From the NCBI RefSeq assembly GCF_014206975.1, contig NZ_JACHOU010000002.1, forward strand, positions 1 to 64,000: DNA of 64,000 nucleotides, given 5' to 3'. The DNA comes from Aminobacter aganoensis. Its GTDB lineage: Bacteria > Pseudomonadota > Alphaproteobacteria > Rhizobiales > Rhizobiaceae. The notes beneath the pieces were generated by a model, which had not been told where the DNA came from, did no database searches, and was given only the letters and a program-made list of their open reading frames with translations. Of the stretch, positions 1-41,587 are shown piece after piece (the stretch's first letter is position 1; every line of letters begins with the position of its first letter). Position numbers and translations under genes: made by a program.

Positions 1-208
1 TGGTCAGCGTGCCGACCCGACGCTCAAGTGCCGAACGATTGACGCAACGCATCGATTCCAGAAAACCAAGATCAAGCGCCATGCCCGGATTGCGCGGCAA
101 GCCGATGTCAGCATCTGACACAGCATGCACCACACGCACACTCGCGCCGCTGCCCTCATGCATTTCCATTGCCAATCCCACCACAAGGCCCACCAGATAA
201 GCGGCCAC
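1..208 (-). CDS. Partial CDS of unknown function at left edge
   Basis: An open reading frame runs from a possible GTG at 208 off the left edge, with no stop in this frame over about 69 codons. The visible protein begins VAAYLVGLVVGLAMEM and later contains NPGMALDLGFLESM. I do not recognise the family. An in-frame stop lies just upstream of the proposed start, which bounds the N terminus, but no clear ribosome-binding site is visible. The frame is divergent from deoR and would share the dyad operator at 267-305, so a role in nucleoside or pentose catabolism would fit by position only. Codon use is less GC-rich than in the rest of the window. Confidence 0.35.
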   Translation of the reverse strand, partial: MAAYLVGLVVGLAMEMHEGSGASVRVVHAVSDADIGLPRNPGMALDLGFLESMRCVNRSALERRVGTLT

Positions 209-389: not shown

Positions 390-1139
390 GTGGCGAGAGC
401 CGGCTCAGCAAAAGCGCAGCGTATGGAGCGCCTCCAGGCAGAGCTGGCACAGGGCCGGGCGTTGCACATCAGCGCTGTCTCCAAACTCCTGGAGGTCTCC
501 GAGATGACGGTGCGTCGAGACATCCAGCAGAACCCAGGCAAACTCGGGTATCTCGGCGGTTATGTGGTGCCACGCGGCATGTTCGAACCAGAGAACTCCT
601 ATACGCTCGATATGGCTGCCGACCAGCAGCGCGATGCCAAGCGACGGGCCTGCGAAATCGCCCTGCGCCATGTCCGCGCCGAAGAGACCATCTTCATCGA
701 CTGCGGCACGACCCTGATCGAGTTGGTCGACCTCATCCCTAACGACATGCGGCTTACCGTCGTCTGTTACGCGCTCAACGTTGCCGAGCGGCTGGCACAC
801 AAACCGAATGTGACGCTCGTGATGCTCGGCGGCGTCTACTATCCCGCGTCCGCTACCTTCTTCGGTCCAGAGGCGCTGGCCACCATCTCGTCGCTGGGAA
901 TAAATGTGGCACTGTTGTCTGCTGCCGGTTTCGATTGGGCGCGAGGCGCGACCTGCGCGCATTTTCACGAGGCCGAGATAAAACGGAAGGTCATGGCCAC
1001 TGCCAGCCGCAATATTCTCGTCATCGACACCAGCAAGATAGGCAGATTGCGCTCCGTCCTGTTCGCAGAAAGCACGAGCTTCGACGCGATCGTCACCGAA
1101 CTCAGTGGGGATGAGACCTCACAGCACCCCGCGTCATGA
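390..1139 (+). CDS. deoR: DeoR-family transcriptional repressor, close to DeoR itself
   Basis: A 249-residue cytoplasmic DNA-binding regulator. An N-terminal winged helix-turn-helix (about residues 8-45, containing SEMTVRRDI) is followed by a DeoRC sugar-phosphate-sensing domain with the usual DCGTT motif near residue 109. The match to Escherichia coli DeoR continues beyond family motifs: LGGY after the helix-turn-helix, VCYALN in mid-protein, and SAAG followed by GATC in the effector domain. DeoR represses deoxyribonucleoside catabolism and responds to deoxyribose-5-phosphate; that effector is assumed here from the family. The start is GTG at 390. The next ATG, at 423, would cut into the region that aligns with DeoR, so I prefer the GTG although no good ribosome-binding site is visible. 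A deoC remnant lies convergently just downstream, which supports the deo assignment. Confidence 0.8.
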   Translation: MARAGSAKAQRMERLQAELAQGRALHISAVSKLLEVSEMTVRRDIQQNPGKLGYLGGYVVPRGMFEPENSYTLDMAADQQRDAKRRACEIALRHVRAEETIFIDCGTTLIELVDLIPNDMRLTVVCYALNVAERLAHKPNVTLVMLGGVYYPASATFFGPEALATISSLGINVALLSAAGFDWARGATCAHFHEAEIKRKVMATASRNILVIDTSKIGRLRSVLFAESTSFDAIVTELSGDETSQHPAS

Positions 1140-1337
1140 GATAACTAGACCGGTCGAGTTGTTCATCAGGGCCAGCCGGTCGAGCGACACCCTTGCATTT
1201 GAGACGCCGCCGGCCGGCTTGAAGCCGACGGGAGAGACGGCCTGCTGGTGATGACGTCGGCAACCGCCATCGTTGCCACCATCGAGGCGCGCGAGACATC
1301 GCGCTGACATGGAGACTTCTCCAACGATCTGCTTCAT
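1134..1337 (-). pseudogene. deoC: Degraded C-terminal fragment of deoxyribose-phosphate aldolase (deoC)
   Basis: Immediately after the nucleoside hydrolase stop (a TGATG junction) an open frame of 67 codons begins MKQIVGEVSMSAR and later reads PVGFKPAGGV. DeoC enzymes have the Schiff-base lysine in a segment like FIKTSTGKVxVxAT and a second essential lysine in VGFKPAGGxR about 34 residues later. Both segments are recognisable here, 38 residues apart. The stretch between them looks like DeoC only when read in another frame (RASMVATMAVADV), so a pair of compensating frameshifts is likely. The N-terminal two thirds of the barrel is missing. I read it as a non-functional remnant of the original deo locus, cut where the sulfatase/nucleoside hydrolase operon begins. 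An unrelated short frame is the alternative. Confidence 0.55.
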
Positions 1338-2305
1338 CAGGAGCCCAGGATCGTCCGGCGGAACAGCCGCGCGTAGCGGCCGCCATCGACCGCCAGGGCA
1401 ACATCGACAGGCTGCCCAAGGCTTGCGCCGTTCAATTCGGATTCGCCGCGATGGGCGCGGCGGTCGACGAGCGTCTGGCCGCGCGAACGCGATCCATCGG
1501 TGCACACGCTGACCGGAAACCGCTGCGTCGTCAGGCCTTCGGGGTCGATCACGGCACAGACCGCGCCGGCATCGCCGAGTGCCGCAATGGTTCCCGACGG
1601 GATGCGTTTCTGGCCAGCATCCTTCACCGCAAGGTGCCGGAAGAGCTTCGCGCACAGCTGCGCGCTCTGCACGCTGGATGTCTCCAGCGCAAACACGTCA
1701 TCTTCGGATACCGCGGCACTGTAGAAGACGTCGAGGCCATACATCATCGTCGGAATGCCACTGTCGACGACGATCGCCGCCGCCTCGGGGTCGGCCCAGG
1801 TGTTGAACTCGGCGACCGGGGTGGCATTGCCGACGCTGGCGCTGCCTCCCATGAAGACGATCCTGTCGAGCCTGGCGGCAACGTCGGGATACATCCGGAT
1901 GAGCAGCGCGACATTGGTCAGCGGTGCAAGGGCGATCAGGACGGGCGGCGTCGGGCTGGCCAGAATCTGCTGGCGCATGAGTTCGACGGCATGCATGTCG
2001 CTGGCGTTTGATGCCGGTGCTTCGAGTTCCAGCCCGGCCAATCCGTTGTGACCGTGGACATGCGCCGCGTTGCGCGGTGCCGCAATCAGCGGACGGGAGG
2101 CACCGCGGGCAACGGGGACGTGTGCCGCACCGGCGACGGACAAGACGGCGCGGGTGTTGCGATAGACATCGTCGAGCGGCGCGTTTCCGGCCACGCAGGT
2201 CACCGCACGCAGGTTGAAACCCGGGTGAAGGGCCGCAAAAACGAGCGCAAGGGCGTCGTCGACGCCGGTGTCGACGTCGACCAAGATTTCAATCGGCTGC
2301 GGCAT
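1337..2305 (-). CDS. Inosine-uridine-type nucleoside hydrolase
   Basis: A 322-residue cytoplasmic nucleoside N-ribohydrolase-family protein, which would split a nucleoside into base and ribose. The N-terminal calcium-binding motif DVDTGVDDA is present (Asp10, Asp12, Asp16, Asp17), as are HGHNGLAG near residue 84 and AEFNTWADPEAA at 165-176. Near the C terminus the metal-binding Asp is kept (Asp245), but the preceding residue, a catalytic His in classical HD-containing members, is Gly244. Substrate preference may therefore differ from standard purine or pyrimidine hydrolases. The start overlaps the sulfatase A stop as TGATG (ATG at 2305; a GTG at 2308 also exists), a sign of translational coupling in an FGE1-sulfatase A-hydrolase operon. 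The coupling suggests that the hydrolase acts on the desulfated product of sulfatase A. Confidence 0.85.
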   Translation of the reverse strand: MPQPIEILVDVDTGVDDALALVFAALHPGFNLRAVTCVAGNAPLDDVYRNTRAVLSVAGAAHVPVARGASRPLIAAPRNAAHVHGHNGLAGLELEAPASNASDMHAVELMRQQILASPTPPVLIALAPLTNVALLIRMYPDVAARLDRIVFMGGSASVGNATPVAEFNTWADPEAAAIVVDSGIPTMMYGLDVFYSAAVSEDDVFALETSSVQSAQLCAKLFRHLAVKDAGQKRIPSGTIAALGDAGAVCAVIDPEGLTTQRFPVSVCTDGSRSRGQTLVDRRAHRGESELNGASLGQPVDVALAVDGGRYARLFRRTILGS

Positions 2306-4524
2306 CACTCAGTGCTTTCCATGGCTTCGGCGACATCCTCGATCAGCGGCTGGTCGAGGAAGTCTATGGTCAATGTCTCGAACGACCTGCCTCTATAGGC
2401 GAATTCGCCGGAATATTCGTTCGATACCCGGTCGGCGGCATCCTTGCCTATGTCGATGCCCCAGAACGACAGATGCGCGGCAGTTGTCGGAATGCGCACC
2501 GCCCCTACCCTCTGGCGGCCATGCAGGAGCACGAGCTCGGCAGAATGGCCCTGCCGGTTGTGCAGGGCAAATCCGGCCTCGCATGTTCCCGCCGGCAGCG
2601 GGGCATCGGCGACGCAGGTGGTACGGCGGCCAAGCTGGACATGTTCGAACACCAGGCGGCCGTCCTTCACGTAGAGCGTGTACCCTCCCCTCCGGTCGCC
2701 GCTCGCGACCAGGACGCCGCCCTCTGCCAAGGCCCGATCTCGGAACGAGGCGGTCACGAGCATGGATCGCTCCGAACCGGCGATCATGCTGCTGATCGGC
2801 ACGTGGCTCTGGCCCGGTCGGAAGACCAGCCTGTTGCGCGACATCAGGCCGATCGGCGGCCGGGCGCGCAACAGCTGCACTAGCGTGCGGTCGTCGAGCG
2901 GCAGCACGTTGTTCGCCTCCGCCTCCTGCCACCAGCGGCCGATCATCTCCTTCAAGCGCTCGGGCTCGTCATCGGCACGATCCCTGGACTCCGAAAAATC
3001 GCCCTCGGTGTCGTAGAGCCGCCAGTCGTCATCGTCGTAGGCGACGCCTTGCCTGTGTTCGGTTACCGCGCGCCAGCCCTCGTGCCAGATGGCGCGGTGG
3101 CCGAGATTTTCCCAGTACTGGGTCGCACGCGGCGCAGGCACGTCGGTCGCAGCAAAGGTCGAGGCGATGCTGCGGCCATCGCATGGCAGCGGATGATCGA
3201 GCCCCGCCAAGGACATGATTGTCGGTGCAAGATCGATCACATGGGAGAACTGCGTCCTGACCTCGCCTGTCGTGCCGATGCCCTTGGGCCAGGAAACAAC
3301 CATGGGCGAACGCACGCCACCGAGGTCGACGTGCTGCTTGTAGCGGCGGAACGGCGTGTTGCCGGCCATGGCCCAGCCTTGCGGATAGTGCGCGCCGCCG
3401 TGACGGGTGCCGATCTGGTCGAGATGCTTGAGCTGTTCCTCGACGCTCTGCGGCAGGCCGCTGTAAGGCGCGTTGGTGTCGACAGCGCCATCCTTGCCGC
3501 CTTCGCGGCTGGCACCATTGTCGGACATCACGATGATCAGCGTATTGTCGAGCTCGCCCAGCCGTTCCAGTTCGTCGACGAGGCGGCCAAGATGGACGTC
3601 GGTGTGCTCCAGGAAGCCGGCATAGGCGGCCTGAAGATGGGTGTAGAGCAGCTTCTGGTCGGCCGAAAGCGAGGCCCAGGCGTCGACCTCGTCGTTTCGG
3701 GGCGCCAGTTCCGCGTCCTGCGGCGCAATACCCAATTCCTTCTGCCGCAACAGGCGGTCTTCACGCGTGGCGTCCCAGCCTTTGGCGAACACGTCGACAT
3801 AGGGCTCGATGAAGGACCGGGGGGCCTGGAAGGGCGCATGCGTGGCGCCGAAGGCCAATTGCAGGAAGAAGGGTTCCTCGTCGCGGAAGACCGTATGGTC
3901 GCGGACATAGGAGATGGCCCGGTCAACCAGATCCTCGGTAAGGTGATAATCCTCGCCGAATTCGCGATCGACCTGGTGATTGTCTTCGCAAAGCTCGGGT
4001 GTGATCTGGTCGGTGCAACCGGGCAGGAAACCGTAGAAGCGGTCGAAGCCGCGGCCGAGCGGCCAGTTGTGGTAGGGGCCGGCCGGCGAGATTTCATGCG
4101 ACGGCGTCAGATGCCACTTGCCGACGAGATAGCTGCCATAGCCCTGCTCGCGCAACATCGCCGGCAACAGGGCCACGTCGCGGTCGATGCTGCCGCGTGA
4201 ATTGGGAAAGCCGGTATCGGTGTCCGACAGGAAACGCATGCCAACTGCATGGTGATTGCGGCCGGTCAGCAGGCAGGTGCGTGTCGGCGAACACAGCGGC
4301 GTGACGTGGAAATTGGTATAGCGCAGCCCGCGCGCAGCCAGCCGGTCGATGGTTGGCGTGCGTATCTCGGAACCGAAGCAGCCGAAATCGGCCCAGCCTG
4401 TGTCGTCCAGCACGACAACGACGATGTTCGGCTTCTGCTCCTTGTGATTGCAGCTCGTCGGCCACCAGGGCCTGGATTCCGCGACGGTCCGACCGATATG
4501 GCCGGGAAACTTGTCATGTTTCAT
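2305..4524 (-). CDS. Sulfatase A, cytoplasmic formylglycine-type arylsulfatase family
   Basis: A 739-residue type I sulfatase, expected to hydrolyse an organic sulfate ester to alcohol plus sulfate. The maturation motif CSPTRTCLLTG places the Cys that becomes formylglycine at residue 78. Metal ligands are Asp40-Asp41 and Asp335-Asn336 (SDNGA); Lys136 and His138 of GKWH and His229 fit the substrate-binding positions of the family. A C-terminal extension of roughly 200 residues, probably a beta-rich domain, makes it longer than the ~530-residue Pseudomonas AtsA and closer in size to large mycobacterial arylsulfatases. There is no signal peptide or membrane segment, so it should act in the cytoplasm. 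It follows FGE1 by 15 bases and overlaps the nucleoside hydrolase start. It is the most divergent of the three sulfatases here. The substrate is not deducible from sequence. Confidence 0.9.
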   Translation of the reverse strand: MKHDKFPGHIGRTVAESRPWWPTSCNHKEQKPNIVVVVLDDTGWADFGCFGSEIRTPTIDRLAARGLRYTNFHVTPLCSPTRTCLLTGRNHHAVGMRFLSDTDTGFPNSRGSIDRDVALLPAMLREQGYGSYLVGKWHLTPSHEISPAGPYHNWPLGRGFDRFYGFLPGCTDQITPELCEDNHQVDREFGEDYHLTEDLVDRAISYVRDHTVFRDEEPFFLQLAFGATHAPFQAPRSFIEPYVDVFAKGWDATREDRLLRQKELGIAPQDAELAPRNDEVDAWASLSADQKLLYTHLQAAYAGFLEHTDVHLGRLVDELERLGELDNTLIIVMSDNGASREGGKDGAVDTNAPYSGLPQSVEEQLKHLDQIGTRHGGAHYPQGWAMAGNTPFRRYKQHVDLGGVRSPMVVSWPKGIGTTGEVRTQFSHVIDLAPTIMSLAGLDHPLPCDGRSIASTFAATDVPAPRATQYWENLGHRAIWHEGWRAVTEHRQGVAYDDDDWRLYDTEGDFSESRDRADDEPERLKEMIGRWWQEAEANNVLPLDDRTLVQLLRARPPIGLMSRNRLVFRPGQSHVPISSMIAGSERSMLVTASFRDRALAEGGVLVASGDRRGGYTLYVKDGRLVFEHVQLGRRTTCVADAPLPAGTCEAGFALHNRQGHSAELVLLHGRQRVGAVRIPTTAAHLSFWGIDIGKDAADRVSNEYSGEFAYRGRSFETLTIDFLDQPLIEDVAEAMESTE

Positions 4525-4539
4525 TGCTGTTCCTCGAAA

Positions 4540-5460
4540 TCAGAAAATCGCCGTGCGTGCACCGAGGTCGGCAGTACATCGAAAGCCGAGATGGCTCGAG
4601 GCTGCATCGACGGCATTGGAAGTTCGTCCCGAGACGCGGTAGCGGTTGCAGTAGCTGCGGTGGCAGAGATAGGAGCCGCCGCGCATCGCCTTCAGCTGCG
4701 GCCGGTCCTTCGACCAACTGTCCGCAGTCCACTCCCACACATTGCCGACCATGTTGAAGAGGCCATAGCCATTGGGCTCGAACGCATCGGCCGGGGCCGT
4801 CGACAGGAAGCCATCTGCTGCGGCGTTGTCCATGGGGAAGCGCCCCTGCCAGATGTTGCAGCGATGCCGGCCGTCATCCAGGAGCTCATTGCCCCAGGGA
4901 TAGATCTTGCCTTCGAGGCCGCCACGGGCGGCGATCTCCCATTCGACTTCCGTCGGCAGCCGCTTGCCGCGCCAGGCGGCGAAGGCCGCGGCGTCATTCC
5001 AAGAGACGTGCACGACCGGATGATCGCCGCGATCGCGCCAGTGCGATCCAGTGCCGTCGGGCGTCGACCAATTCGCCCCCTTCACCGGCAACCACCATTC
5101 CGGCGAGCCGGTCTGCAGCGACAGGACATCCCGTTCGGCACCTGGATGCAGTTGCGCGTAGAAGACGAACGACCAGCCGATCCGCTCCGCTTCCGTCTCA
5201 TAACCCGTCGCATCCACGAAGCTGGCAAAATCGCTGTTCGTCACGGCGGTCCTGTCGATCAGGAAGCCGTGGCAATCGACAGTTCGGCATGGCCCTTCGC
5301 CGTCTTCGGGATATGCCTCCGGCCCATCATAACCGACCCGCCGGATGCCGGCGGGAATGGCAGCCATGTCCGAGCTGTCCAGACTGCGGGACATAACCTT
5401 GGGCTGTCGCATCGGGATCGGCTGCTCCTCGCTTTCCCGGACTGGTAAACAACACGACAT
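4540..5460 (-). CDS. Formylglycine-generating enzyme FGE1 (sulfatase-activating oxidase)
   Basis: A 306-residue copper-dependent oxidase that converts the CxPxR cysteine of sulfatases to formylglycine. The FGE-sulfatase fold is clear: GKRLPTEVEWE at about 165, CNIWQGRFP at 201, GNVWEW at 239. The decisive motif GGSYLCHRSYCNRYR holds the active-site pair Cys266 and Cys271, with the spacing of human Cys336/Cys341, so this is a true FGE and not only a SUMF1-fold relative. I start at ATG 5460 because CAGGAAAC precedes it at good spacing and because the N terminus then reads MSCCLP, matching MACCTP of FGE2. It is the first gene of the operon with sulfatase A and the nucleoside hydrolase, and it is divergent from the LysR gene. 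It lacks a signal peptide. Confidence 0.92.
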   Translation of the reverse strand: MSCCLPVRESEEQPIPMRQPKVMSRSLDSSDMAAIPAGIRRVGYDGPEAYPEDGEGPCRTVDCHGFLIDRTAVTNSDFASFVDATGYETEAERIGWSFVFYAQLHPGAERDVLSLQTGSPEWWLPVKGANWSTPDGTGSHWRDRGDHPVVHVSWNDAAAFAAWRGKRLPTEVEWEIAARGGLEGKIYPWGNELLDDGRHRCNIWQGRFPMDNAAADGFLSTAPADAFEPNGYGLFNMVGNVWEWTADSWSKDRPQLKAMRGGSYLCHRSYCNRYRVSGRTSNAVDAASSHLGFRCTADLGARTAIF

Positions 5461-5515
5461 CAAGGCGTTTCCTGGTGACGCTTGGATTCTGGGCTCCAAA
5501 GCATGGTCGGATTAT

Positions 5516-5546
5516 TTGACAAAGGCTGGATGCCGGCCAATACATT
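5516..5546 (+). promoter_or_regulatory. Possible sigma-70 promoter for the LysR gene
   Basis: A perfect TTGACA at 5516-5521 is followed after 17-19 bases by weak -10 candidates (AATACA at 5539, TACATT at 5541). It lies in the divergent gap between FGE1 and the LysR gene and points toward LysR. This is sequence resemblance only. Confidence 0.3.
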
Positions 5547-5573
5547 TAGGCTTGAAGGCAATTCCAATTGGTT

Positions 5574-6536
5574 ATGAGCCGGGCATCCCCCATGTCGTTC
5601 GAAGTCCCCAACCTCACCTTGCTCAAGCACTTCATCATGGTTGCCGAGGACAAGGGAATCTCGAAGGCGGCGAAGCGCCTGCGCATCTCACAGCCGGCCC
5701 TTTCGAAGAACATCAAGCGGCTTGAGGAGATGCTCGGGACACGGCTCTTCGAAAGGCATTCCGGCGGCGCCGACCTGACCCAGACGGGACAGGCCTTCTT
5801 CAACCGGGCCCAGATCATCGGGCTCGAATACGAGCACGCCGTGCAGGAAATCCGAAACCTGCTGTCCGAACAGGACGCGACCATCCGGGTGGCGGCCGGG
5901 CCGATCTGGTCGTCGACCATACTCCCGGCGGCGGCTTCCCGTTTCCACAAGCGCTTTCCACGCCATCGCCTGTCGGTGCAGACCGGTTCGGTCGACCAGT
6001 TGATCGAGGATCTGAGGCTCGGGCGCGTCGACATCTTTGCAGGCGCCGTGATCGCCAAGAGCAGGCTGCCTGGCTTCACGTCGCGGCGCGTCGCCAAGGC
6101 GCAGCTCGGCATCATGTGCGCGGAGCATCACCCGCTCGCCCGGATCGAAGGCCCGGTCGATCCCAAGGAGCTCGTCAGCTACCCGTTCGTGTCGTTCAAC
6201 CTGAACAGGGACGTGCTGAAGACGCTGTCCGACTGGCTCAAGGAACGCGGCGCGCCGCCTCCCCGCTACCTTCTCGAAACCAGCTCGATCTACACCTGCG
6301 CGGAACTGGCACGCTCGGGCGACTACCTGTTCTACGAGTCGACGATGGTGGCGAGCAGCCCGATCGGACACGGACTGAAGGTGCTCAAGACCGACAAGGA
6401 AATCTTCCAGTACGATTTGGGCTTCGTGTTTCGCCAGGGCATGGACCGGCTGCCGCCGCACAGCGGCCTGATGAAGGCCATGGTAGAGGTGTTCGAGAAC
6501 AGAGGCCTGCGCAACCTGCCGAGCGCCGCCGAATAG
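5574..6536 (+). CDS. LysR-family transcriptional regulator
   Basis: About 320 residues. The N-terminal LysR helix-turn-helix (GISKAAKRLRISQPALSKN, near residues 25-45 and followed by LEEMLGTRLFER) leads into a periplasmic-binding-protein-like effector domain. It is divergent from the FGE1-sulfatase A operon, the usual arrangement for a LysR regulator and its target, and convergent with sulfatase B. A role in regulating sulfate-ester use is therefore likely, but the inducer cannot be read from sequence. The start is uncertain: TTG 5568, ATG 5574 and ATG 5592 are all possible and none has a strong ribosome-binding site. Confidence 0.85.
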   Translation: MSRASPMSFEVPNLTLLKHFIMVAEDKGISKAAKRLRISQPALSKNIKRLEEMLGTRLFERHSGGADLTQTGQAFFNRAQIIGLEYEHAVQEIRNLLSEQDATIRVAAGPIWSSTILPAAASRFHKRFPRHRLSVQTGSVDQLIEDLRLGRVDIFAGAVIAKSRLPGFTSRRVAKAQLGIMCAEHHPLARIEGPVDPKELVSYPFVSFNLNRDVLKTLSDWLKERGAPPPRYLLETSSIYTCAELARSGDYLFYESTMVASSPIGHGLKVLKTDKEIFQYDLGFVFRQGMDRLPPHSGLMKAMVEVFENRGLRNLPSAAE

Positions 6537-6553
6537 GCGGCGCTCCCCGATCG

Positions 6554-8785
6554 TCAGTCGATGTCGCCGCTGGGCGGCACGATCTCGCGGTCGTCGCCGA
6601 GTTCGATCACCAGCCGGTGGAGCTTGCCCGTGAACGGGAACTCGCCTGCGATCGCATCGCACACCGGCGGCATGCCGCTTCGCCCGATGAACATGGGCGC
6701 AAGGGAAATGCGCAGCAGCGTCTGGTGCTCACGCTCGCCGGTTTGCCGCTTACCGTTTACAACAAGCGCGCCAATGCCCTTGAGAAGGCCGGTCTTGCGG
6801 TATTCGAAGCCGAGCGTGATGGCACCGAACTCACTTAGCCGCTCCGAAGCCAGTCGCGTGATGTCACCGCAATGGTTGTAGACGTAGTTGAGCCTGCCAT
6901 CCTTCAGATAGAGGACGTAGCCGCTGCCGCAGTTTCCGTAGCTGACCAACGTGCCTTCCGACTGCTGGTCGATCATCACCTCGGCGGTGATGCGATGCGA
7001 CGTGTCCTGGGTCAGCGGCGCTGCCGACGAGGGGACGGATTCGAGCTGCGGGTAGAAGACATATCTGCCGCGCGCGCGGATGGAGTCCGGCTTTGCCTTG
7101 GCGCGGAAGCGCACCTCACGGTCGTCGAGGGGCATCACGTCATACCGCCCGGCCTCCGCCCACCAGCGCTCGGTCATTTCGCGCAGCTTGGCCGGATGGT
7201 CATCCGCCAGGTTTCGGGTCTCGTTGAAATCCTCGTCCAGCTTGTAGAGCTCCCAGTCGTCGAGCTCGAAGTCGTCGCCCCGCTTGTGCTTAGTGACCGC
7301 CTTCCAGCCCCTGTGCCAGATGCCGCGATGGCCGAACATTTCGAAATACTGGACGTCCTTGCGCGACTCTGCTTCCGGGGCGTCGAAGGTGTAGGCAAAG
7401 CTCGTGCCATGGACGGGCATCTGGGCTACGCCCCTGTAGACCTCGGGCGCCTCGACACCGCAGATCTCGAGTACCGTCGGGGTGATGTCGACGACATGAT
7501 GGAACTGGTGGCGGATGCCGCCCTTGTCGGCAATCCGCGCCGGCCATGACACGATCATCGGGTCGCGCACGCCGCCGCCATGGGTGAAGGACTTGAACAG
7601 CCGCAGCGGGGTGTTGCTGGCCTGGGCCCATCCCCAGGGATAGTTGCTGAAGCTGCGCGGCCCGCCGATCTCGTCGATCGCAGCGAGATTTCGCTCGAAC
7701 GACTCCGGTATCTGGTTGAAGCGTCGGAGCACGTTGGTCGTGCCCTCGGGACCGCAGTCAATCGACGCGCCGTTGTCGGAGATGACCACGATCAAGGTGT
7801 TGTCGAGCTTTGCGCTGGCCTCCAGGAAATCGAGCAGCCGGCCCAGTTGCTCGTCGGTGTATTCGAGGAAACTGGCATAGGCCCGCTGCAGCCTGGCGGC
7901 AACCTTCCGCTGGTCGGCCGACAACAGGTCCCAGTCTTCCACTCCCGGAGCATCCGGCGGCAGTTCCGTCGAAGCCGGAACGAGGCCCATCGCCTTCTGC
8001 CGTTCGAGCCGCCGTTGCCGGATGACGTTCCAGCCCTGGTCCCAGACGCCCTCGTATCGGTCCATGTAGGCCTTCGGCACCTGATGCGGGAAGTGCCCGG
8101 CCGAGAAGGCGAGGTTCAGGAAGAAAGGAGTGTCGGGCGCCAGCGAGACGTGGGCGCCGAGCATGGCGATCGACTTGTCGACCAAATCGGCGGTCAGATG
8201 GTAGCCTTCCTCCGGTGCATTTGGCTGCGCGACGGCGTGGTTGTCTTCCACCAGCTCGGGATAATACTGGTCGGTGCTGCCGTTCATGAAGCCGTAGAAA
8301 CGGTGAAAGCCACGACCGAGCGGCCATTGGTCAAACGGTCCGACGGCGGTGATCTCGTCGGTTTGTGCGACATGCCACTTGCCGACGGCAAAATTGGCGT
8401 AGCCGACGCCGCCCAGCATTTCGGCAATGGTGGCGGCGCGATGCGAAATCGATCCGCGTCCGTTCTGGTAGCCGAAGTCGAAATTGGCAAGGCAACGCAT
8501 GCCGACCGCGTGATGGTTGCGCCCCGTCAGCAGGCAGGCCCGCGTCGGCGAACACATCGTGGTCGTGTGGAAATTGCTGTAGCGGAGCCCCGCCTGGGCG
8601 AGCCGATCGAAATTAGGCGTCCGTATCTCTGATCCGAAACAGCCAAGGTCGGCGAAGCCGACATCGTCGAGGATGACGTAGATGACATTGGGGCTGCCGG
8701 GCGCGGGCCTGGGCCTGGTTTCAAACCAGTTGTCCGACTCGTGATAGGTGCGGCCAACGCGGCCGGGGGTGCGGTCTCTAGACAT
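6554..8785 (-). CDS. Sulfatase B, cytoplasmic formylglycine-type sulfatase
   Basis: A 743-residue type I sulfatase. The Cys that becomes formylglycine is residue 78 in CSPTRACLLTG. The first metal pair is Asp40-Asp41, and SDNGA supplies the second pair in mid-protein. GKWH and a C-terminal extension of about 190 residues are present as in sulfatase A. It resembles sulfatase C far more closely than A, for example in the shared segments GPFDQWPLGRGF and YGFMNGSTDQ and in SDNGAS followed by a TTNVLR segment. I start at ATG 8785 with GAGG upstream, because the longer frame adds 17 residues that have no counterpart in A or C. No signal peptide. It is the last gene of the FGE2-importer 1 operon, 108 bases after the permease, so importer 1 probably supplies its substrate. 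Confidence 0.9.
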   Translation of the reverse strand: MSRDRTPGRVGRTYHESDNWFETRPRPAPGSPNVIYVILDDVGFADLGCFGSEIRTPNFDRLAQAGLRYSNFHTTTMCSPTRACLLTGRNHHAVGMRCLANFDFGYQNGRGSISHRAATIAEMLGGVGYANFAVGKWHVAQTDEITAVGPFDQWPLGRGFHRFYGFMNGSTDQYYPELVEDNHAVAQPNAPEEGYHLTADLVDKSIAMLGAHVSLAPDTPFFLNLAFSAGHFPHQVPKAYMDRYEGVWDQGWNVIRQRRLERQKAMGLVPASTELPPDAPGVEDWDLLSADQRKVAARLQRAYASFLEYTDEQLGRLLDFLEASAKLDNTLIVVISDNGASIDCGPEGTTNVLRRFNQIPESFERNLAAIDEIGGPRSFSNYPWGWAQASNTPLRLFKSFTHGGGVRDPMIVSWPARIADKGGIRHQFHHVVDITPTVLEICGVEAPEVYRGVAQMPVHGTSFAYTFDAPEAESRKDVQYFEMFGHRGIWHRGWKAVTKHKRGDDFELDDWELYKLDEDFNETRNLADDHPAKLREMTERWWAEAGRYDVMPLDDREVRFRAKAKPDSIRARGRYVFYPQLESVPSSAAPLTQDTSHRITAEVMIDQQSEGTLVSYGNCGSGYVLYLKDGRLNYVYNHCGDITRLASERLSEFGAITLGFEYRKTGLLKGIGALVVNGKRQTGEREHQTLLRISLAPMFIGRSGMPPVCDAIAGEFPFTGKLHRLVIELGDDREIVPPSGDID

Positions 8786-8862
8786 GAGCGCCTCGGAACA
8801 TCGGGTAAATCGGAGATGCCGCATCTCGCCGATCATGCCGCATCCGTTGAATCTTGACCCGA

Positions 8863-8878
8863 CCTGCCCACCGGCAGG
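8863..8878 (-). terminator. Hairpin between permease 1 and sulfatase B
   Basis: CCTGCC, a four-base loop, then GGCAGG form a perfect six-pair stem after the permease 1 stop. No T-run follows, so it may be an intercistronic processing or attenuation hairpin and not a full terminator. Confidence 0.35.
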
Positions 8879-8893
8879 CCGGGCCTGTGGCCA

Positions 8894-9721: not shown

Positions 9722-9724
9722 GGC

Positions 9725-11553: not shown

Positions 11554-11645
11554 CTTTATCCTCCAATCAGACAAGCGCAACGACCTAATCTCGGCGAGGA
11601 TAGACCGCGTCCAGCGGCTCCACACCATAACATGCTTCTGCGAAC

Positions 11646-12596
11646 TCATTCCATGTGGTTATGGTCGCCACCACGCGCCGAAGCGCGCGAAGAATGCGTC
11701 TGGAGGTCGCCCGCACAGCGAAAACCCAGATGGCTCGACGTGGCGCCAAAATGGTTGCAGGTCCGGGCTGCAACCCGATAACGGTCGCAATAGCTCGCGT
11801 GGCAAAGATACGAACCGCCGCGCATTGCCATCAATCCGGGTGCCTCGTTCGACCACGGCGAAGCAGTCCACTCCCATACATTGCCGAGCATGTTGTAGAG
11901 GCCGAAGCCGTTGGGCGGAAAACTCCGCGCCGGCGCTGTCGCGAGGTAACCGTCGTCGGCCGTGTTGTTGAGCGGAAAGCGCCCCTGCCAGATGTTGCAC
12001 ATGTGGCGCCCGCCAGGATGGAGGCCGTCGCCCCAGGTGTAGACGGCCCTCTGCAGGCCACCCCGCGCCGCCGCTTCCCATTCAACTTCCGTGGGCAGGC
12101 GCTTGCCGACGAAGCCGGCAAAGGCGGCGGCGTCATTCCACGAGACATGAACGACGGGATGATCGCGCAACCCATGCAGGGAGGAGCCTTCCCCATCAGG
12201 CGCGTGCCAGCAGGCGCCGCGAACAGGGAGCCACCACTCCGGCGCGCGCGCGTCTGCGCCCGCCACGACAGCGGCCTCCGGGTGCGCCTGGGCGATGAAG
12301 ACGAACGACCATCCGAGACGCTCTGCCTCCGTGACATAACCGGTGGCACTGACGAACGATGCGAAGGCCTCGTTTGTCACCGCGGTCTTGTCGATGAGAA
12401 AAGCGGGCAGATCGACATACCTCACCGGCCCCTCCCCGTCATCGGGATTGGCGAAAGCCCGGTCCTCGCCGAGCAGCCAGCTCCCAGCGGGGATTCGCGC
12501 CATGTCCGGATGGCCGCCCGCCGCAAGCGAGACGGGAGCAGAGATTTGTTCCTGGGGACGATCGACTGCGGACCGACCCGGAGTGCAACAAGCCAT
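11646..12596 (-). CDS. Formylglycine-generating enzyme FGE2
   Basis: A 316-residue second true FGE in this island. The motif GGSYLCHASYCDRYR carries the active-site cysteines 265 and 270. The fold motifs KRLPTEVEWE, CNIWQGRFP and GNVWEW match FGE1. The N terminus MACCTP parallels MSCCLP of FGE1. It opens the operon that continues with importer 1 and sulfatase B, and it diverges from the GntR gene across the palindrome at 12657-12674, so it is probably controlled by that regulator. It would mature sulfatase B and possibly also A and C. The C-terminal tail after GFRC is longer than in FGE1 and not obviously structured. Confidence 0.92.
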   Translation of the reverse strand: MACCTPGRSAVDRPQEQISAPVSLAAGGHPDMARIPAGSWLLGEDRAFANPDDGEGPVRYVDLPAFLIDKTAVTNEAFASFVSATGYVTEAERLGWSFVFIAQAHPEAAVVAGADARAPEWWLPVRGACWHAPDGEGSSLHGLRDHPVVHVSWNDAAAFAGFVGKRLPTEVEWEAAARGGLQRAVYTWGDGLHPGGRHMCNIWQGRFPLNNTADDGYLATAPARSFPPNGFGLYNMLGNVWEWTASPWSNEAPGLMAMRGGSYLCHASYCDRYRVAARTCNHFGATSSHLGFRCAGDLQTHSSRASARGGDHNHME

Positions 12597-12656
12597 GACG
12601 CGGTCCTGTCGAAAAACTGGGATCGTGGAATTTGACTCTTTCTCGATAACACGTAA

Positions 12657-12674
12657 AGGTAGGACGTCCTACCT
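12657..12674. promoter_or_regulatory. Perfect 18-bp palindrome, candidate GntR operator
   Basis: AGGTAGGACGTCCTACCT is identical to its reverse complement. It lies 17 bases before the GntR start codon and about 60 bases before the divergent FGE2 start. The GT...AC pattern suits HutC-subfamily GntR sites. It follows TTGACT (12632-12637) by 19 bases and would overlap the -10 region of the GntR promoter, consistent with autorepression and control of both divergent operons. Confidence 0.7.
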
Positions 12675-12690
12675 CTTGGAGGAAAGAACG

Positions 12691-13440
12691 ATGTCAGGAT
12701 CTGCCACCGAGCGCGTCATGCAGTACATTCGCCAGCAAAAGCTGGTCGCAGGAGATCGCCTGCCCGCGGAAGTGGACATTTCGCGGATACTCGGCCTCAG
12801 CCGCAATTCTCTGCGTGAAGCCTATGCCGACCTGATGGCCAAGGGCCTGCTCAAGAACAAGCACGGCGTCGGCACGTTCATCGCCAACCCGCCCATTCTC
12901 AACGCCCTGACAGGCTCGGCCGGGTTCTGGAACCTGATCGAAAAGGCGGGCATGAAAGCGTCCTTTCGCGAGGTCCTGCGCGATCAGGTGATCGCCCCCA
13001 AGGAGATCGCCGTCATCTTTGGCCTGGCGGCAGAGAAGCCAACCCAGCGCCTGCGCTGGCTGTTCCTGGCCAACGACCAGCCATGCATTCTCGTCGACCA
13101 TTATCTGGCACGCAGCATTCCGCCGAGTGCCTTCAACCAGACCACCGAGCATGACGCACTCGCTGCCATCGCGCCGTTCACGGTCGTCGATGGCGCGTCG
13201 CTGTCGACACGCACGTCGGCGATCAACGCGACCGACGAAATCGCCGAACTGCTTCAGGTCAACGAGGGAGACGCGCTCCTGTGGAGCACAGCCCTCGTGC
13301 ACTCGGGCGACGGCAGCGTGCCGCTGGCCTCGCGCTCGTGGATGGTCCCCCACCTTCTCAACAGCCATCAGGTGATGGCTCTCTCTCCCGTTCATTTCCA
13401 GGGCAATGCAGCCCCTTCGCCGGAGGACGAACCGAAATGA
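12691..13440 (+). CDS. GntR-family (HutC/UTRA) regulator
   Basis: A 249-residue regulator. The N-terminal GntR winged helix (residues about 5-70, with GDRLPAE, SRNSLREA and GVGTFI) is followed by a UTRA-type ligand domain. The start at 12691 is fixed by GGAGG ten bases upstream; longer open reading upstream runs into the divergent FGE2 promoter. Its stop overlaps the start of binding protein 2 (ATGA), so it is co-transcribed with the importer 2-sulfatase C operon. The ligand is probably the imported sulfate ester or its product, which would make the pathway substrate-inducible and not purely sulfur-starvation controlled. Confidence 0.87.
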   Translation: MSGSATERVMQYIRQQKLVAGDRLPAEVDISRILGLSRNSLREAYADLMAKGLLKNKHGVGTFIANPPILNALTGSAGFWNLIEKAGMKASFREVLRDQVIAPKEIAVIFGLAAEKPTQRLRWLFLANDQPCILVDHYLARSIPPSAFNQTTEHDALAAIAPFTVVDGASLSTRTSAINATDEIAELLQVNEGDALLWSTALVHSGDGSVPLASRSWMVPHLLNSHQVMALSPVHFQGNAAPSPEDEPK

Positions 13441-14408
13441 CCCGATTTACCAAGACTGCCCTCGGCCTTGCGTCCAGCCTGTGGCTGTTCTCGGCACAAA
13501 TGGCCGGGGCGCAGACCCTCCAACCCGTACGCTTCGGCGTCGACGCCTATACCACCGGCTCCCAGATCTGGGTCGCCAAGGAAAAAGGCTTCTTCGAGAA
13601 GGAAGGGATCGATCCGCAGATCACCACCTTCGCCACCGGCGTCGAGGCGATCGACGCACTGCTGATCGGCCGCGCCGACATGGCGGTGGGGCTCGACTTT
13701 CCGATCGTCTCGCGCATCCAGGGCGGCAAGCTGACCGTGCTTGCCGGGATTTTTCATTCGACGCCGGGCTTCCACAAGCTGGTCGTCAGCAACGAGATCA
13801 AGGAAGCCAAGGACCTGGTCGGCAAGAAGCTGGGCATTGCCGCCGGCACGGCTCAGCACCTGGTCACGATGAAATACCTCGAAGAGAATGGCATCGCCGA
13901 GGACAAGGTCGAGATCGTCGGCTTCACCAGCCTGCTCGAAATCGTCGCGTCCCTCCGCTCCGGCCGCATCGACGCGGCATTCGTCTGGGCCGACGGCACT
14001 CAAAAGTCTATCGATGGCGGCGAGCGCTACGTGCTGACCGACGACGCGGCCGCCAAGCGCAACAGCAGCGCGTATATCGCTGCCCAGACCGATTTCACCG
14101 AAAAGCACCCCGAACTGACGGTGGCGACGCTGCGTGCGCTCAACGAGGCAAGCGCTTTCATCACGGCCAACAAGGACGAGGCTTCAGCCATCATCGCCAA
14201 GAATACGCGCGCGCCGCGCGACACCGTGCGCGAGCTTCTCAACTACAACGAGTTCGCGCTGGCGCTGACGGACTATGAGCGTCGCGGCTTCCAGGAAGTT
14301 GCGGACTTCCTCGCGAAGACCAAGTCCCAGCCAGTGACCTTCGAAACGGGCGTCAACCCGAGATACCTGAAGGAAGCGGCCCCCGACCTGGTCAAGCTGG
14401 ATAATTGA
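13437..14408 (+). CDS. Periplasmic binding protein 2 (NMT1/SsuA type)
   Basis: A 323-residue exported binding protein. A Sec-type signal peptide ends near residue 24 (AGA-Q). The mature part shows the family features FGVDAYTTGSQIWVAKEKGFF, GLDFPI and KKLGIAAGTAQ. It overlaps the GntR stop by four bases, with GGAGGA upstream. It supplies importer 2. Its sequence is clearly different from binding protein 1, so the two importers probably prefer different ligands. Confidence 0.87.
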   Translation: MTRFTKTALGLASSLWLFSAQMAGAQTLQPVRFGVDAYTTGSQIWVAKEKGFFEKEGIDPQITTFATGVEAIDALLIGRADMAVGLDFPIVSRIQGGKLTVLAGIFHSTPGFHKLVVSNEIKEAKDLVGKKLGIAAGTAQHLVTMKYLEENGIAEDKVEIVGFTSLLEIVASLRSGRIDAAFVWADGTQKSIDGGERYVLTDDAAAKRNSSAYIAAQTDFTEKHPELTVATLRALNEASAFITANKDEASAIIAKNTRAPRDTVRELLNYNEFALALTDYERRGFQEVADFLAKTKSQPVTFETGVNPRYLKEAAPDLVKLDN

Positions 14409-14419
14409 GCGATACGACC

Positions 14420-15235
14420 ATGACAAACAGCCCAACAAGCGAGACCCCTCCGACGCCGGCGGTGGTCTTCGACAAGGTCGGCATGGCCTATCCCGGCCAG
14501 AAGGCCGGCAGCGAACTGATCCTCGCCAACCTCTCGGTTACCGTGCCGCAGGGAGAATTCTTCGTGCTCGTCGGCCCCAGCGGCTCGGGCAAGTCGACCT
14601 TGCTGAAGATCGTCGCCGGCACCGAGAAGCAGACCGAGGGTCGCGTCCTTGCCAATGGCAACGTCATCGACGGACCGGACCGCCGGCGCGGCATGGTGTT
14701 CCAGTCGATCGAGGAACCGTTGTTCCAATGGCTGACGGTCGCGGAGAACATCGGCTTTGGGCCCAGCGTGGCCGGCAAGTCGCGTTCCGAGTGCCGGACA
14801 ATCGCGCAGCATTACATCGACCTCGTCGGCCTGCGCGGACACGAGGCAAAGTTCCCGCACGAACTGTCGGGCGGCATGAAGCAGCGCGTGCAGATCGCCC
14901 GCACCCTTGCCGCCGAACCGGAACTGATCCTGTTCGACGAGCCGTTCGCCGCGCTCGACGCGCTGACGCGCCGCGTGCTGCAGAAAGAACTGACGCGAAT
15001 CTGGCGCGAGACCGGTTGCACGATGGTCTATGTCACGCACGATATCCGCGAAGCGGTGCTGCTCGGCCAGCGTGTCGCCGTCATGAGCCGGGGACCGCGC
15101 GCCAACATCACCCGCGTCTACGACATCGACCTGCCCTACCCGCGCGACGACCTCGACAGCCGTTTCGCCGACGCCGTGAAGGCGATCGAGGGCGACATCG
15201 AAAGGGAGGCGGCTTCGCAATGGGAGCAAAACTGA
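14420..15235 (+). CDS. ABC transporter ATP-binding protein 2 (SsuB/TauB type)
   Basis: The ATPase of importer 2, about 271 residues. Walker A is GPSGSGKST, the signature is LSGGMKQR, Walker B is LILFDEP followed by FAALDAL, and the switch His is in VYVTHD. ATG 14420 is chosen. A TTG at 14405 overlapping the previous stop would add five residues. The 3' end overlaps permease 2 by 16 bases, indicating one operon. Confidence 0.9.
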   Translation: MTNSPTSETPPTPAVVFDKVGMAYPGQKAGSELILANLSVTVPQGEFFVLVGPSGSGKSTLLKIVAGTEKQTEGRVLANGNVIDGPDRRRGMVFQSIEEPLFQWLTVAENIGFGPSVAGKSRSECRTIAQHYIDLVGLRGHEAKFPHELSGGMKQRVQIARTLAAEPELILFDEPFAALDALTRRVLQKELTRIWRETGCTMVYVTHDIREAVLLGQRVAVMSRGPRANITRVYDIDLPYPRDDLDSRFADAVKAIEGDIEREAASQWEQN

Positions 15236-15993
15236 TGCCATCCTATGCATGGTCGGCGCTGAGCGTCGCCACCGTTCTGATCGTCTGGCAGATCGCCTCG
15301 ACCTGGCTGGTCGACCCGATGTTCCTGCCCGCCCCGATGGCAGTCCTCAAGGGCGCCGGGCAGATGCTGGAAGAAGGCACGCTCAGCCAGTCGGTGCTGG
15401 TGTCGATGATGCGCATTCTGTCGGGCTGGCTCGTCGGCAGCGCCATCGCCATACCGATCGGCCTTGCGGTCGGCGTCTCGCCGGTGGCCCGTCACCTGGT
15501 CGACCCGTTCATCCACTTCTTCCGCTTCGTTCCGGCGATCGCGCTGGTGACGCTGTTCATCATCTGGTTCGGCGTGGGCGAGATGTCGAAGATCATCCTG
15601 ATCGCCTACGCGACGGCCTTCATCGTGATGGTCAACACGGCAAGCGGCGTGTCCTCGATCTCGCAGGACAAGCTGAACGCCGCGCGCTGCCTTGGCGCCA
15701 ACGAACGACAGGTCTTCTTACGGGTGATGATCCCGGCCTGCCTGCCCTCGATCTATGTCGGCATGCGGCTGGCGCTTGCCTCGTCCTTCCTGGTGATCGC
15801 GGCGGCCGAAATGCTCGCCGCCGACGCGGGCCTCGGATACATCATCTGGACCTCGCGCCTCTACTTCCAGGTGGACTGGATGTTTGCCGCCATCATCGTG
15901 CTCGGCCTCCTGGGTTTCGCCACTGACCGCCTGTGGCGGCTCCTCGGGCGCACCTTGCTCAAGCGCTATTTGCGCGGCGTCACAGGCTATTGA
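15220..15993 (+). CDS. ABC transporter permease 2 (SsuC/TauC type)
   Basis: A 257-residue permease with about six membrane segments and the EAA loop around ARCLGANERQVFLRVMIPA. The start at ATG 15220 (MGAKLMPS) follows GGGAGG about eleven bases upstream and overlaps the ATPase 2 gene; a longer open frame upstream is an alternate-frame shadow of the ATPase. It is followed after 66 bases by sulfatase C. Confidence 0.88.
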   Translation: MGAKLMPSYAWSALSVATVLIVWQIASTWLVDPMFLPAPMAVLKGAGQMLEEGTLSQSVLVSMMRILSGWLVGSAIAIPIGLAVGVSPVARHLVDPFIHFFRFVPAIALVTLFIIWFGVGEMSKIILIAYATAFIVMVNTASGVSSISQDKLNAARCLGANERQVFLRVMIPACLPSIYVGMRLALASSFLVIAAAEMLAADAGLGYIIWTSRLYFQVDWMFAAIIVLGLLGFATDRLWRLLGRTLLKRYLRGVTGY

Positions 15994-16059
15994 TCCAATC
16001 GGGCCGGACCTGGCCTCACTTGGGTCCGGCCGTCATCTCTCAGACTTGGGACTGGTTTC

Positions 16060-18294
16060 ATGACTTCCGAATTTCGCGGACGCATTGGCCGTACGCACCA
16101 CGAATCCGCACGCGACTACGCAGACATCCCGACAGGCCCGGCTGGCAAGCCGAACGTGATCTATGTCGTGCTCGACGACGTGGGCTATTCAGATCTCGGC
16201 TGCTTCGGCTCGTCCATCGATACGCCGAATTTCGATTCGCTCGCCAACAACGGCCTGCGCTACAGCAATTTCCATACGACGACGCTGTGCTCGCCGACGC
16301 GCGCGTGCCTTCTCACCGGGCGCAACCATCACTCCGTCGGCATGCGCTATCTCGCGAACGCCGACATGGGCTGGCCCTCCGGCCGCGGCGCGATCAGCCA
16401 TCGCGCGGGAACGCTGGCCGAGATGCTCAAGCAACAAGGCTACGCGACATATGCAGTCGGCAAGTGGCACCTCGCGCCGACCGAGAACGCCAATGCTGCC
16501 GGCCCCTTCGACCAGTGGCCGCTCGGGCGCGGTTTCGAGCGTTTCTACGGCTTCATGAACGGCAGCACCGACCAGTTCCACCCCGAACTCTGCCAGGACA
16601 ACCAGCAGGTTTCGCCGCCGGCGACGCCTGAACAGGGCTACCACCTGTCCGACGACCTTTCGAACCGGGCGGTGCGCTACATCGCCGACAAGATGGCAAT
16701 CTGGCCGGACAAGCCGTTCTTCCTCTACCTTTGCTACGGCGCCGGGCATTTCCCGCACCAGGCGCCCGAGCCGGCACTGGCAAAATACCGCGGCCGCTTC
16801 GCCGATGGCTGGGACGAGGAACGCGTCCGCAGGCTGATCAAGCAAAAGGCGATGGGGCTGGTGCCCGAAAGTACCGAACTGCCCCAGCCGAACCCCGGCG
16901 TGCGCGCCTGGGAGGAGCTTGCCGCAGATGAGCGCGAAGTGTCGGAGCGCATGCAGGAGGCCTATGCGGCGCTGCTCGACCACACCGACGCTGCGTTCGG
17001 CAAGCTGCTCGATTTCCTCGACCGCACCGGCATCCGCGACAACACGATCATTGTCCTCATCTCCGACAACGGGGCCTCCACCGACTGCGACCCGGACGGC
17101 ACGACGAACGTGCTGCGCTGGTTCAACCGCTTGCCCGAGGACTATTCGGTCTCGGGCGAGCGCATGGCCGAAATCGGCTCGGCGCGCAGTTCCGGCAACT
17201 ACCCCTGGGGCTGGGCACAAGCCTCCAACACCCCGCTCAAGCTCTACAAGAGCTTCACCCATGGCGGCGGCGTGCGCGATCCCATGATCTTCTCCTGGCC
17301 TGCCGGCATCGCCGACAAGGGCGGGATTCGTGCACAGTTCACCCATGTCACCGACATCACGCCGACAATCATGCAGCTTTGCAATGTCGCCGCGCCCGAG
17401 ACGATCAACGGCGTGGCGCAGATGCCGATCCACGGCGAGAGCTTCGGCTATTCGTTCGATGCGCCCGATGCGGCAACCGAAAAGCAGTCGCAGTACTTTG
17501 AAATGTACGGGCATCGCAGCATCTGGCACCGCGGCTGGAAGGCGGTGACGCAACACAAAGCCGGAAGCGATTTCGACAACGAGCACTGGGAACTCTACCA
17601 CCTCGACGAAGATTTCTCTGAGCTTCGCGATCTCTCGGTGGAAATGCCGGAAAAGCTGGCCGAGATGAAGGAGCGCTGGTGGGCGGAGGCCGGTCGCTAC
17701 GGCGTCATGCCGCTCGACGACAGCGACGTGCTGTTCAAGCCTCCCTACCGGCCCGGCGCGCCGCGCTGGCGCAACGAATGCAGCTTCTTCCCGCCGACCT
17801 CCTCCATCCCGGCGGAGGCAGCGCCGATGACCCAGGATGTCTCGCATCGCATCACGATCCAGATCGAGCGCGACGATGCGAACCAAGGGGGCGCGCTGGT
17901 CTGCTTCGGCAGTTGCCACGGCGGCTATGCCATCGACATCATCGATAACCGGTTGGTTTACACCTACAACTACGCCGGTTTTGAAGTCAGCCGCATCGTT
18001 TCGGACCTAGAGATCCCGCTCGGTGCAGCGACCATCGCCTTCGAGTTCGAGAAGACGGGGACGCTCAAGGGGCGCGGCAGCCTGATCGTCGATGGGCGGC
18101 CGGCAGGCTCGCACCTATTCGAACGGACACTGCTCAGGCTTTCGCTGTCACCCCTGATGTTTGGGCGCAGCAATGCCGAGCCGGTCGACCCGAAGCGACG
18201 GACGAACCCGGATTTTGCCGGGCGGATCATGCGTATCGACTACGCCATCGGCCAGGATCGCGACGTCATGCCGGCGAGCCTGGATGTGGATTGA
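16060..18294 (+). CDS. Sulfatase C, cytoplasmic formylglycine-type sulfatase
   Basis: A 744-residue type I sulfatase. The Cys that becomes formylglycine is residue 77 in CSPTRACLLTG. Asp39-Asp40 and the SDNGA pair bind the metal. GKWH and a C-terminal extension of about 190 residues are present. It is the closest relative of sulfatase B in this window and sits in the mirror position behind importer 2. No signal peptide, so hydrolysis should follow import. FGE2, divergent and under the same palindrome, is the likely activator. The substrate is unknown. Confidence 0.91.
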   Translation: MTSEFRGRIGRTHHESARDYADIPTGPAGKPNVIYVVLDDVGYSDLGCFGSSIDTPNFDSLANNGLRYSNFHTTTLCSPTRACLLTGRNHHSVGMRYLANADMGWPSGRGAISHRAGTLAEMLKQQGYATYAVGKWHLAPTENANAAGPFDQWPLGRGFERFYGFMNGSTDQFHPELCQDNQQVSPPATPEQGYHLSDDLSNRAVRYIADKMAIWPDKPFFLYLCYGAGHFPHQAPEPALAKYRGRFADGWDEERVRRLIKQKAMGLVPESTELPQPNPGVRAWEELAADEREVSERMQEAYAALLDHTDAAFGKLLDFLDRTGIRDNTIIVLISDNGASTDCDPDGTTNVLRWFNRLPEDYSVSGERMAEIGSARSSGNYPWGWAQASNTPLKLYKSFTHGGGVRDPMIFSWPAGIADKGGIRAQFTHVTDITPTIMQLCNVAAPETINGVAQMPIHGESFGYSFDAPDAATEKQSQYFEMYGHRSIWHRGWKAVTQHKAGSDFDNEHWELYHLDEDFSELRDLSVEMPEKLAEMKERWWAEAGRYGVMPLDDSDVLFKPPYRPGAPRWRNECSFFPPTSSIPAEAAPMTQDVSHRITIQIERDDANQGGALVCFGSCHGGYAIDIIDNRLVYTYNYAGFEVSRIVSDLEIPLGAATIAFEFEKTGTLKGRGSLIVDGRPAGSHLFERTLLRLSLSPLMFGRSNAEPVDPKRRTNPDFAGRIMRIDYAIGQDRDVMPASLDVD

Positions 18295-41258: not shown

Positions 41259-41277
41259 TGCCCCTCTCCCGGCGCCG

Positions 41278-41565: not shown

Positions 41566-41587
41566 GCTCTCTCCTATTGGCCCATCC

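Follow-up and report, generated by a model that had tools for sequence, protein, structure and literature searches.

The window analyzed here, the first 64,000 nucleotides of contig C2 of the Aminobacter aganoensis genome (G000; 5.76 Mb), contains a unit of three genes encoding a formylglycine-generating enzyme (FGE1), a sulfatase (sulfatase A) and a nucleoside hydrolase (NH), which follow one another in this order on the minus strand:

1337..2305, minus strand: NH, an IU_nuc_hydro protein (PF01156, 269.1 bits against a cut-off of 34.2)
2305..4524, minus strand: sulfatase A, 739 aa, a PAS-like formylglycine sulfatase (PF00884, 220.9 bits against a cut-off of 25)
4540..5460, minus strand: FGE1, formylglycine-generating enzyme (PF03781, 251.7 bits against a cut-off of 23.3)
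2303..2307, minus strand: TGATG, where the stop of sulfatase A overlaps the start of NH

Sulfatase A and NH share a single nucleotide, the A common to the stop codon TGA (2307-2305) and the start codon ATG (2305-2303), and 15 bases (4525-4539) separate the FGE1 stop from the sulfatase A ATG. This layout, given already in a preliminary description of the DNA, is confirmed by the coordinates, the Pfam scores and the recurrence of the junctions in related genomes. The sulfatase A-NH junction stays within 1 nt in all five genomes in which it was inspected, as a 1-nt overlap in the window, G397 and Aminobacter carboxidus (G399, where it reads TAATG) and as a 1-nt gap in Aminobacter ciceronei (G400) and G402, and the gap between FGE1 and sulfatase A is 15 nt in four of the four genomes inspected. 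Scans for promoters and terminators gave chance-level results only. Pairwise dN/dS values (NG86) are low for NH (0.12-0.15, six pairs), sulfatase A (0.07-0.09, three pairs) and FGE1 (0.19-0.20, three pairs), indicating that all three genes are under purifying selection; in the comparisons made with the window, dS of NH is 0.73-1.56.

Sulfatase A carries the CxPxR formylglycine motif (CSPTR, residues 78-82) and matches the Pseudomonas arylsulfatase PAS (1hdh; 5e-79). Nine of its residues (D40, D41, R82, K136, H138, H229, D335, N336 and K396) match residues of 1hdh in the alignment, which we take to bind the metal and the sulfate, and the same nine are invariant across an alignment of five sequences. 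FGE1 keeps the C-terminal cysteine pair (C266-HRSY-C271, CHRSYC), presumably of functional importance. No signal peptide was apparent by eye in either protein, and the hydrophobicity values, which are weak evidence, are 1.12 for sulfatase A and 0.28 for FGE1, compared with 1.93 and 1.21 for the binding proteins encoded nearby; sulfatase A is probably cytoplasmic. A structure model of sulfatase A built from five sequences was too poor for use (mean pLDDT 45.8).

Conservation of the unit and the genes past NH

Our genus sample comprised 10 genomes, the window genome included, one of those without NH being only 81% complete. An NH ortholog is present in five of them, and in four, again including the window, it is directly preceded by a full sulfatase A (at least 90% identity). 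The adjacency is thus not confined to this genome, a possibility that the preliminary description had raised, and a looser neighborhood of the same kind is found on one Arthrobacter plasmid. The five genus genomes without NH also lack a sulfatase A ortholog; G403 and G404, both in this group, encode other sulfatases, with 37-41% identity. An exact short-peptide scan of genome contigs returned two loci only, in A. ciceronei and A. carboxidus. Outside the genus, no NH ortholog was found in the family, order, class and phylum samples, which partly overlap and in which few candidates were scored per genome, so that misses are possible. Matches were obtained in 4 of 361 family-sample genomes, all of the same genus (E<=1e-55), in 63 of 397 order-sample genomes (E<=1e-40; those outside the window genome 32-45% identical), in 1 of 385 class-sample genomes, the window genome itself (E<=1e-48), and in 5 of 398 phylum-sample genomes including the window genome (E<=1e-48; the others 38-39% identical). 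A scan of viral contigs with the alignment of the NH clade described below yielded no relative.

In the relatives, the NH strand continues from FGE1, sulfatase A and NH into a deoxyribose-phosphate aldolase gene (DeoC) and, where assembled, genes for an aldehyde dehydrogenase (ALDH; 789 aa, with two matched stretches), a nucleoside deoxyribosyltransferase-like (NDT-like) protein (PF05014) and a PfkB kinase. A DeoC copy lies past NH in all four genomes with the full island (the window copy is cut), and ALDH, the NDT-like gene and the kinase, the last on the same strand as NH, follow DeoC in G397 and G402, the two assembled through. In G402 all seven genes, from FGE1 to the kinase, lie on one strand, with 25 nt from NH to the called DeoC start and no match to the DeoR regulator, which in G397 and G400 sits between NH and DeoC in the opposite orientation. 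The G397 kinase scores above the cut-off of the ribokinase model TIGR02152 (328.1 vs 299.65) and below that of PRK11142 (288 vs 341). Just past it, in G397 (L046 10564-12272), are a gene for a TauE/SafE-type exporter and an Alph_Pro_TM gene. No kinase ortholog was found in G400, whose contig begins beside DeoC. Across the genus, DeoC is present in 10 of 10 genomes, with a second full copy in three, in addition to the truncated one with which the window begins; the DeoR ortholog is found in three of the ten and the kinase in five.

The island DeoC-ALDH pair is a second, near-identical copy of a pair located elsewhere in the genome (99.8% identity over 3407 bases in G397 and 98.3% over 3653 in G402), which suggests a recent duplication or gene conversion. 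C42, a 3462-base contig of G000 that contains only ALDH and DeoC, has an end identical to the first 95 bases of the window; the window probably starts in a collapsed two-copy DeoC-ALDH repeat. The A. carboxidus contig likewise breaks off directly after NH, in sequence resembling DeoC (88% over 95 bases), and such a near-identical repeat probably explains the contig breaks. Because a DeoC-ALDH copy, an NDT-like gene and a ribokinase gene lie past NH, nucleoside or N-riboside catabolism fits the island, and we tentatively read the unit as a catabolic route for a sulfated N-riboside, that is, a sulfated nucleoside or nucleoside-like compound, a reading that is plausible and a little short of probable.

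The nucleoside hydrolase clade and its sulfatase neighbors

The NH of the window retains the metal- and ribose-binding motifs of the family, namely, DVDTGVDD at 10-17 (DxDxGxDD), EFN at 166-168 and D245, and should therefore still hold the ribosyl group. Its best solved matches by sequence are 4wr2, 5tsq and 8ctm; a structure model from three sequences was weak (mean pLDDT 62.5), with RihA (3g5i) as its best fold match. In searches that excluded actinobacterial chromosomes, the nearest relatives found were encoded on two Arthrobacter plasmids (48.9% and 47.5% identity), and in a tree of 50 NHs these two and the five Aminobacter proteins form a group with support of 0.995. All seven members of this rare clade have glycine before the last metal-binding aspartate (LGDAG or IGDAG for LHDP), whereas the 43 other NHs have histidine there in 42 cases, proline in the remaining one and glycine in none. 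With Gly244 at this place, the window NH lacks the histidine directly before the last metal-binding aspartate that marks group I. In addition, the threonine of the GLDVTH segment, present in 42 of the 43 others, is phenylalanine or leucine in 7/7 clade members, and the histidine of the HG loop, a second candidate acid, is kept in 7/7 clade members and 41/43 others. The leaving-group residue is histidine in group I NHs, tryptophan in group II and cysteine in group III, according to the part of PMC8910321 available. Its loss in the clade suggests that the base or aglycone is not protonated by that histidine; as judged from the alignment, the clade enzymes should use another acid, possibly the loop histidine, or act on a leaving group needing none. 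Two Rhodococcus NHs (L177, L179) considered as further members were ruled out since they keep the histidine (MHDAL). On their plasmids, NH lies beside F420 biosynthesis genes (cofC, cofH) and genes for PRPP synthetase, aldehyde dehydrogenases and a PfkB-type kinase.

One of the two Arthrobacter relatives also has a sulfatase gene nearby. On the 754-kb plasmid of Arthrobacter sp. ERGS1:01, a sulfatase with the motif CSPAR is encoded divergently from an MFS-GntR-NH-ribokinase cluster, its start lying 2.4 kb from that of NH. The MFS protein is UriT-like, scoring 268 bits (below the model cut-off of 600), and the ribokinase 264 bits (below the cut-off of 299.65). A search with the ERGS1:01 sulfatase found one place in that plasmid record, and random placement within 2.5 kb of NH would have a chance of ~1%. 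The pairing looks independent of that in Aminobacter because this sulfatase shares only 28% identity with sulfatase A across 337 alignment columns. The other relative is encoded on plasmid pLDW-10 of A. crystallopoietes (L040 11992-23916), where the His-less NH is near genes for an LLM oxidoreductase, an aldehyde dehydrogenase, HAD proteins, a ribokinase, PRPP synthetase and an amidohydrolase; the region may encode heterocycle catabolism that includes a riboside step.

Searches of 47 further NH loci revealed no sulfatase; these loci represent the nearest homologs rather than random NHs and span mostly ~7 kb on each side (shorter, due to contig ends, in L131, L135, L136 and L154). Of these, L124-L163, L091, L092 and L041 were searched by tblastn with four labelled sulfatases as queries (1e-8), and L176-L179 by annotation only, which is incomplete; L124-L163 comprise one locus each from 36 of 62 other order-sample genomes and from 4 of 4 other phylum-sample genomes. 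Counted by lineage, a sulfatase is near the clade NH in 2/3 vs 0/47 (p = 0.002), a suggestive, not strong, sign that the association with the clade exceeds chance. In three of these loci, each in a different genome of a single genus (L127, L133 and L134), an FGE1-like gene (46-48%) lies ~2 kb from NH, with an FtsH-like gene nearby in two. We rejected this proximity as a parallel case, given that a GlmM-like gene intervenes and no sulfatase was detected (the GlmM-like and FtsH-like labels are our assumption from the protein starts).

Two alternatives to the sulfated N-riboside reading can be weighed against these data. Under the first, the sulfatase and NH are neighbors by chance and co-transcribed for regulation only, for instance for joint induction in nutrient-poor soil. 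The unit is indeed known from one genus and one island, with context alone pointing to a substrate, but the conserved tight coupling and the Arthrobacter neighborhood make this explanation very unlikely. Under the second, the two enzymes do share a substrate, a sulfated glycoside with a non-nucleobase aglycone, such as an aryl or N-heterocyclic riboside, and the histidine was lost because the aglycone leaves unprotonated. Such a substrate would account for the glycine and the phenylalanine or leucine shared by all clade members; p-nitrophenyl riboside requires no leaving-group protonation (PMC8910321, in the part available), and the surroundings of the A. crystallopoietes NH would suit heterocycle catabolism. 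However, the ERGS1:01 NH sits with a UriT-like transporter, suggestive of ordinary nucleosides, and the HG-loop histidine, the second candidate acid, is retained. Moreover, as far as the available part of PMC8910321 goes, S. solfataricus NHs without a usable histidine at position 241 are named for normal nucleosides, the loop histidine being the proposed proton donor for one of them. An unusual aglycone is thus distinctly unlikely.

A candidate route for sulfated N-ribosides and its main rival

Gene order, conservation within the genus, intact motifs, purifying selection and the loss of the histidine are direct observations; the substrate is read from the neighboring genes only, and transport, activity and order of action are inferred. 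In the catabolic route that we favor, the sulfate ester would be imported by one of two NMT1-type ABC systems, FGE1 would convert Cys78 of sulfatase A into formylglycine, as its motifs imply, and sulfatase A would then free the sulfate. NH, made from the same mRNA by translational coupling, as the junction suggests, would cleave the desulfated N-riboside to base and pentose, and the ribokinase and the DeoC-ALDH set would pass ribose or deoxyribose to central metabolism. Sulfated guanosines occur in the venom of Loxosceles spiders (PMC3202818), and sulfated isoguanine glycosides, which are glucosides, come from a seed-beetle pupal case (PMC6940665), as stated in the parts of these sources available; such reports show only that molecules of this kind exist. 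A literature search whose coverage left out most subscription papers returned no report of a sulfatase-NH operon or of bacterial sulfated-nucleoside catabolism.

The remaining genes around the unit bear on what else the island might do:

1..169, minus strand: N-terminal piece of DeoC, cut by the contig end
390..1139, plus strand: DeoR-family regulator, convergent with NH and divergent from DeoC
5595..6536, plus strand: LysR-type regulator, divergent from FGE1
6554..8785, minus strand: sulfatase B (SulfB), 743 aa
8894..11649, minus strand: ABC importer 1 (permease, ATPase, NMT1-type binding protein)
11646..12596, minus strand: FGE2
12643..13440, plus strand: GntR-UTRA regulator
13428..15993, plus strand: ABC importer 2 (NMT1-type binding protein, ATPase, permease, the last by its G397 ortholog)
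16060..18294, plus strand: sulfatase C (SulfC), 744 aa

SulfB and SulfC are 41-45% identical to sulfatase A. Binding protein 1 falls below the cut-off of the SsuA aliphatic-sulfonate model TIGR01728 (51.2 vs 163.5 bits). No MFS transporter was found among the scanned window genes (390-18294) or between FGE1 and the kinase in G397 and G402; in G402, an ORF that looks like an MFS gene by eye lies ~6 kb past the kinase. Farther along the window (38719-43465), a small cluster of an NAD-synthase-like gene, an AMP-binding enzyme gene, an ORF for a 95-aa carrier-like protein (by eye) and an asparagine-synthase-like gene resembles a small biosynthetic unit.

This neighborhood gives rise to the main rival, in which an island that scavenges sulfur from general sulfate esters, with three sulfatases, two FGEs and two ABC importers, and an adjacent nucleoside salvage set (NH-DeoC-ALDH-NDT-ribokinase) form a mosaic, the coupling being an accident of operon fusion and sulfatase A and NH acting on different molecules. 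We consider it a serious if somewhat doubtful possibility. SulfB, SulfC, FGE2 and the ABC genes, with no NH among them, resemble a sulfate-ester unit that is sufficient by itself; A. carboxidus has kept NH although its sulfatase A is no longer whole; and DeoC occurs in five genus genomes without NH or sulfatase A, with G403 having DeoC-ALDH together with the NDT-like gene and the kinase but neither island NH nor sulfatase A. Conversely, NH is never found in the 10 genomes without sulfatase A or its remnant, whereas DeoC is in all of them, so that NH seems to have arrived with the sulfatase and not with the DeoC set. The junction has also stayed within 1 nt despite the synonymous divergence of NH, and an Arthrobacter clade NH is again near a sulfatase, one only distantly similar to sulfatase A.

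Several observations weigh against the sulfated N-riboside route itself. The Aminobacter cases amount to one lineage, and without this discovery lineage the association of the clade with sulfatases drops to 1/2 vs 0/47 (p = 0.04). In A. carboxidus, the intact NH is preceded only by residues 427-739 of sulfatase A, at 1e-100 the genome yields no further match resembling sulfatase A, B or C, and there is no FGE on the NH contig; the A. crystallopoietes clade NH has no sulfatase within 12 kb. SulfB and SulfC adjoin the sulfatase A region without an NH of their own, and no NH was found when sulfatase A-like genes outside the genus were inspected at 20 loci (one locus per genome, from 20 of 31 other matching genomes) or, by annotation only, at four further plasmid sulfatase loci. 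Sulfatase A is of the broad PAS/arylsulfatase type. Finally, NHs classically act on ribosides, while DeoC and the NDT-like gene indicate deoxyribose. The preliminary description had proposed desulfation followed by N-riboside cleavage; the recurrence of the gene pair and the pentose genes support this sequence in part, with A. carboxidus and A. crystallopoietes as exceptions. That the route is a dedicated sulfated N-riboside pathway, for the desulfated product of which the His-less clade of Aminobacter and the Arthrobacter plasmids is specialized, seems to us rather unlikely. As a separate observation, what is left of sulfatase A at the A. carboxidus locus (L038 7287-9856) is its C-terminal 313 residues, with unrelated genes alongside.

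The conserved sulfatase-NH unit with its ribose/deoxyribose branch offers concrete candidate enzymes for sulfated-nucleoside breakdown, and the His-to-Gly clade is a test case for leaving-group activation in nucleoside hydrolases. Should the pathway idea fail, the locus would cleanly illustrate how operon fusion can mislead the inference of function.

Comparison with known systems

The functions of the Corynebacterium uridine utilization genes uriT, uriH and rbsK are described in PMC3350403 (in the part available). Like these, the Aminobacter genes combine NH and ribokinase in one unit, and the Arthrobacter relative adds a UriT-like MFS protein. In place of the UriT of the Corynebacterium operon, which is laid out as uriT-uriH-rbsK, the Aminobacter unit has ABC importers, and it further includes DeoC, ALDH and the NDT-like gene; we know of no sulfatase or FGE associated with the uri genes.

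Sulfate-ester clusters are represented in Pseudomonas by the ats genes. Similar to Pseudomonas PAS (1hdh), sulfatase A keeps the active-site residues and is encoded beside binding-protein ABC importers, but in Aminobacter the FGE is part of the unit, the sulfatase has ~200 extra C-terminal residues and NH is coupled to it.

The window NH shares its fold and its metal- and ribose-binding motifs with group I NHs (RihA, RihB/YeiK and the Crithidia and Leishmania enzymes) but differs from groups I-III, with their histidine, tryptophan or cysteine, in having glycine before the last aspartate. In lacking a usable histidine at the 241 position, it resembles the non-standard NHs of S. solfataricus (PMC8910321, in the part available), which, unlike it, are archaeal. 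This unusual His-less clade is a result additional to the preliminary description, and the unit as a whole combines known kinds, a PAS-like sulfatase with its own FGE and a nucleoside hydrolase unit.

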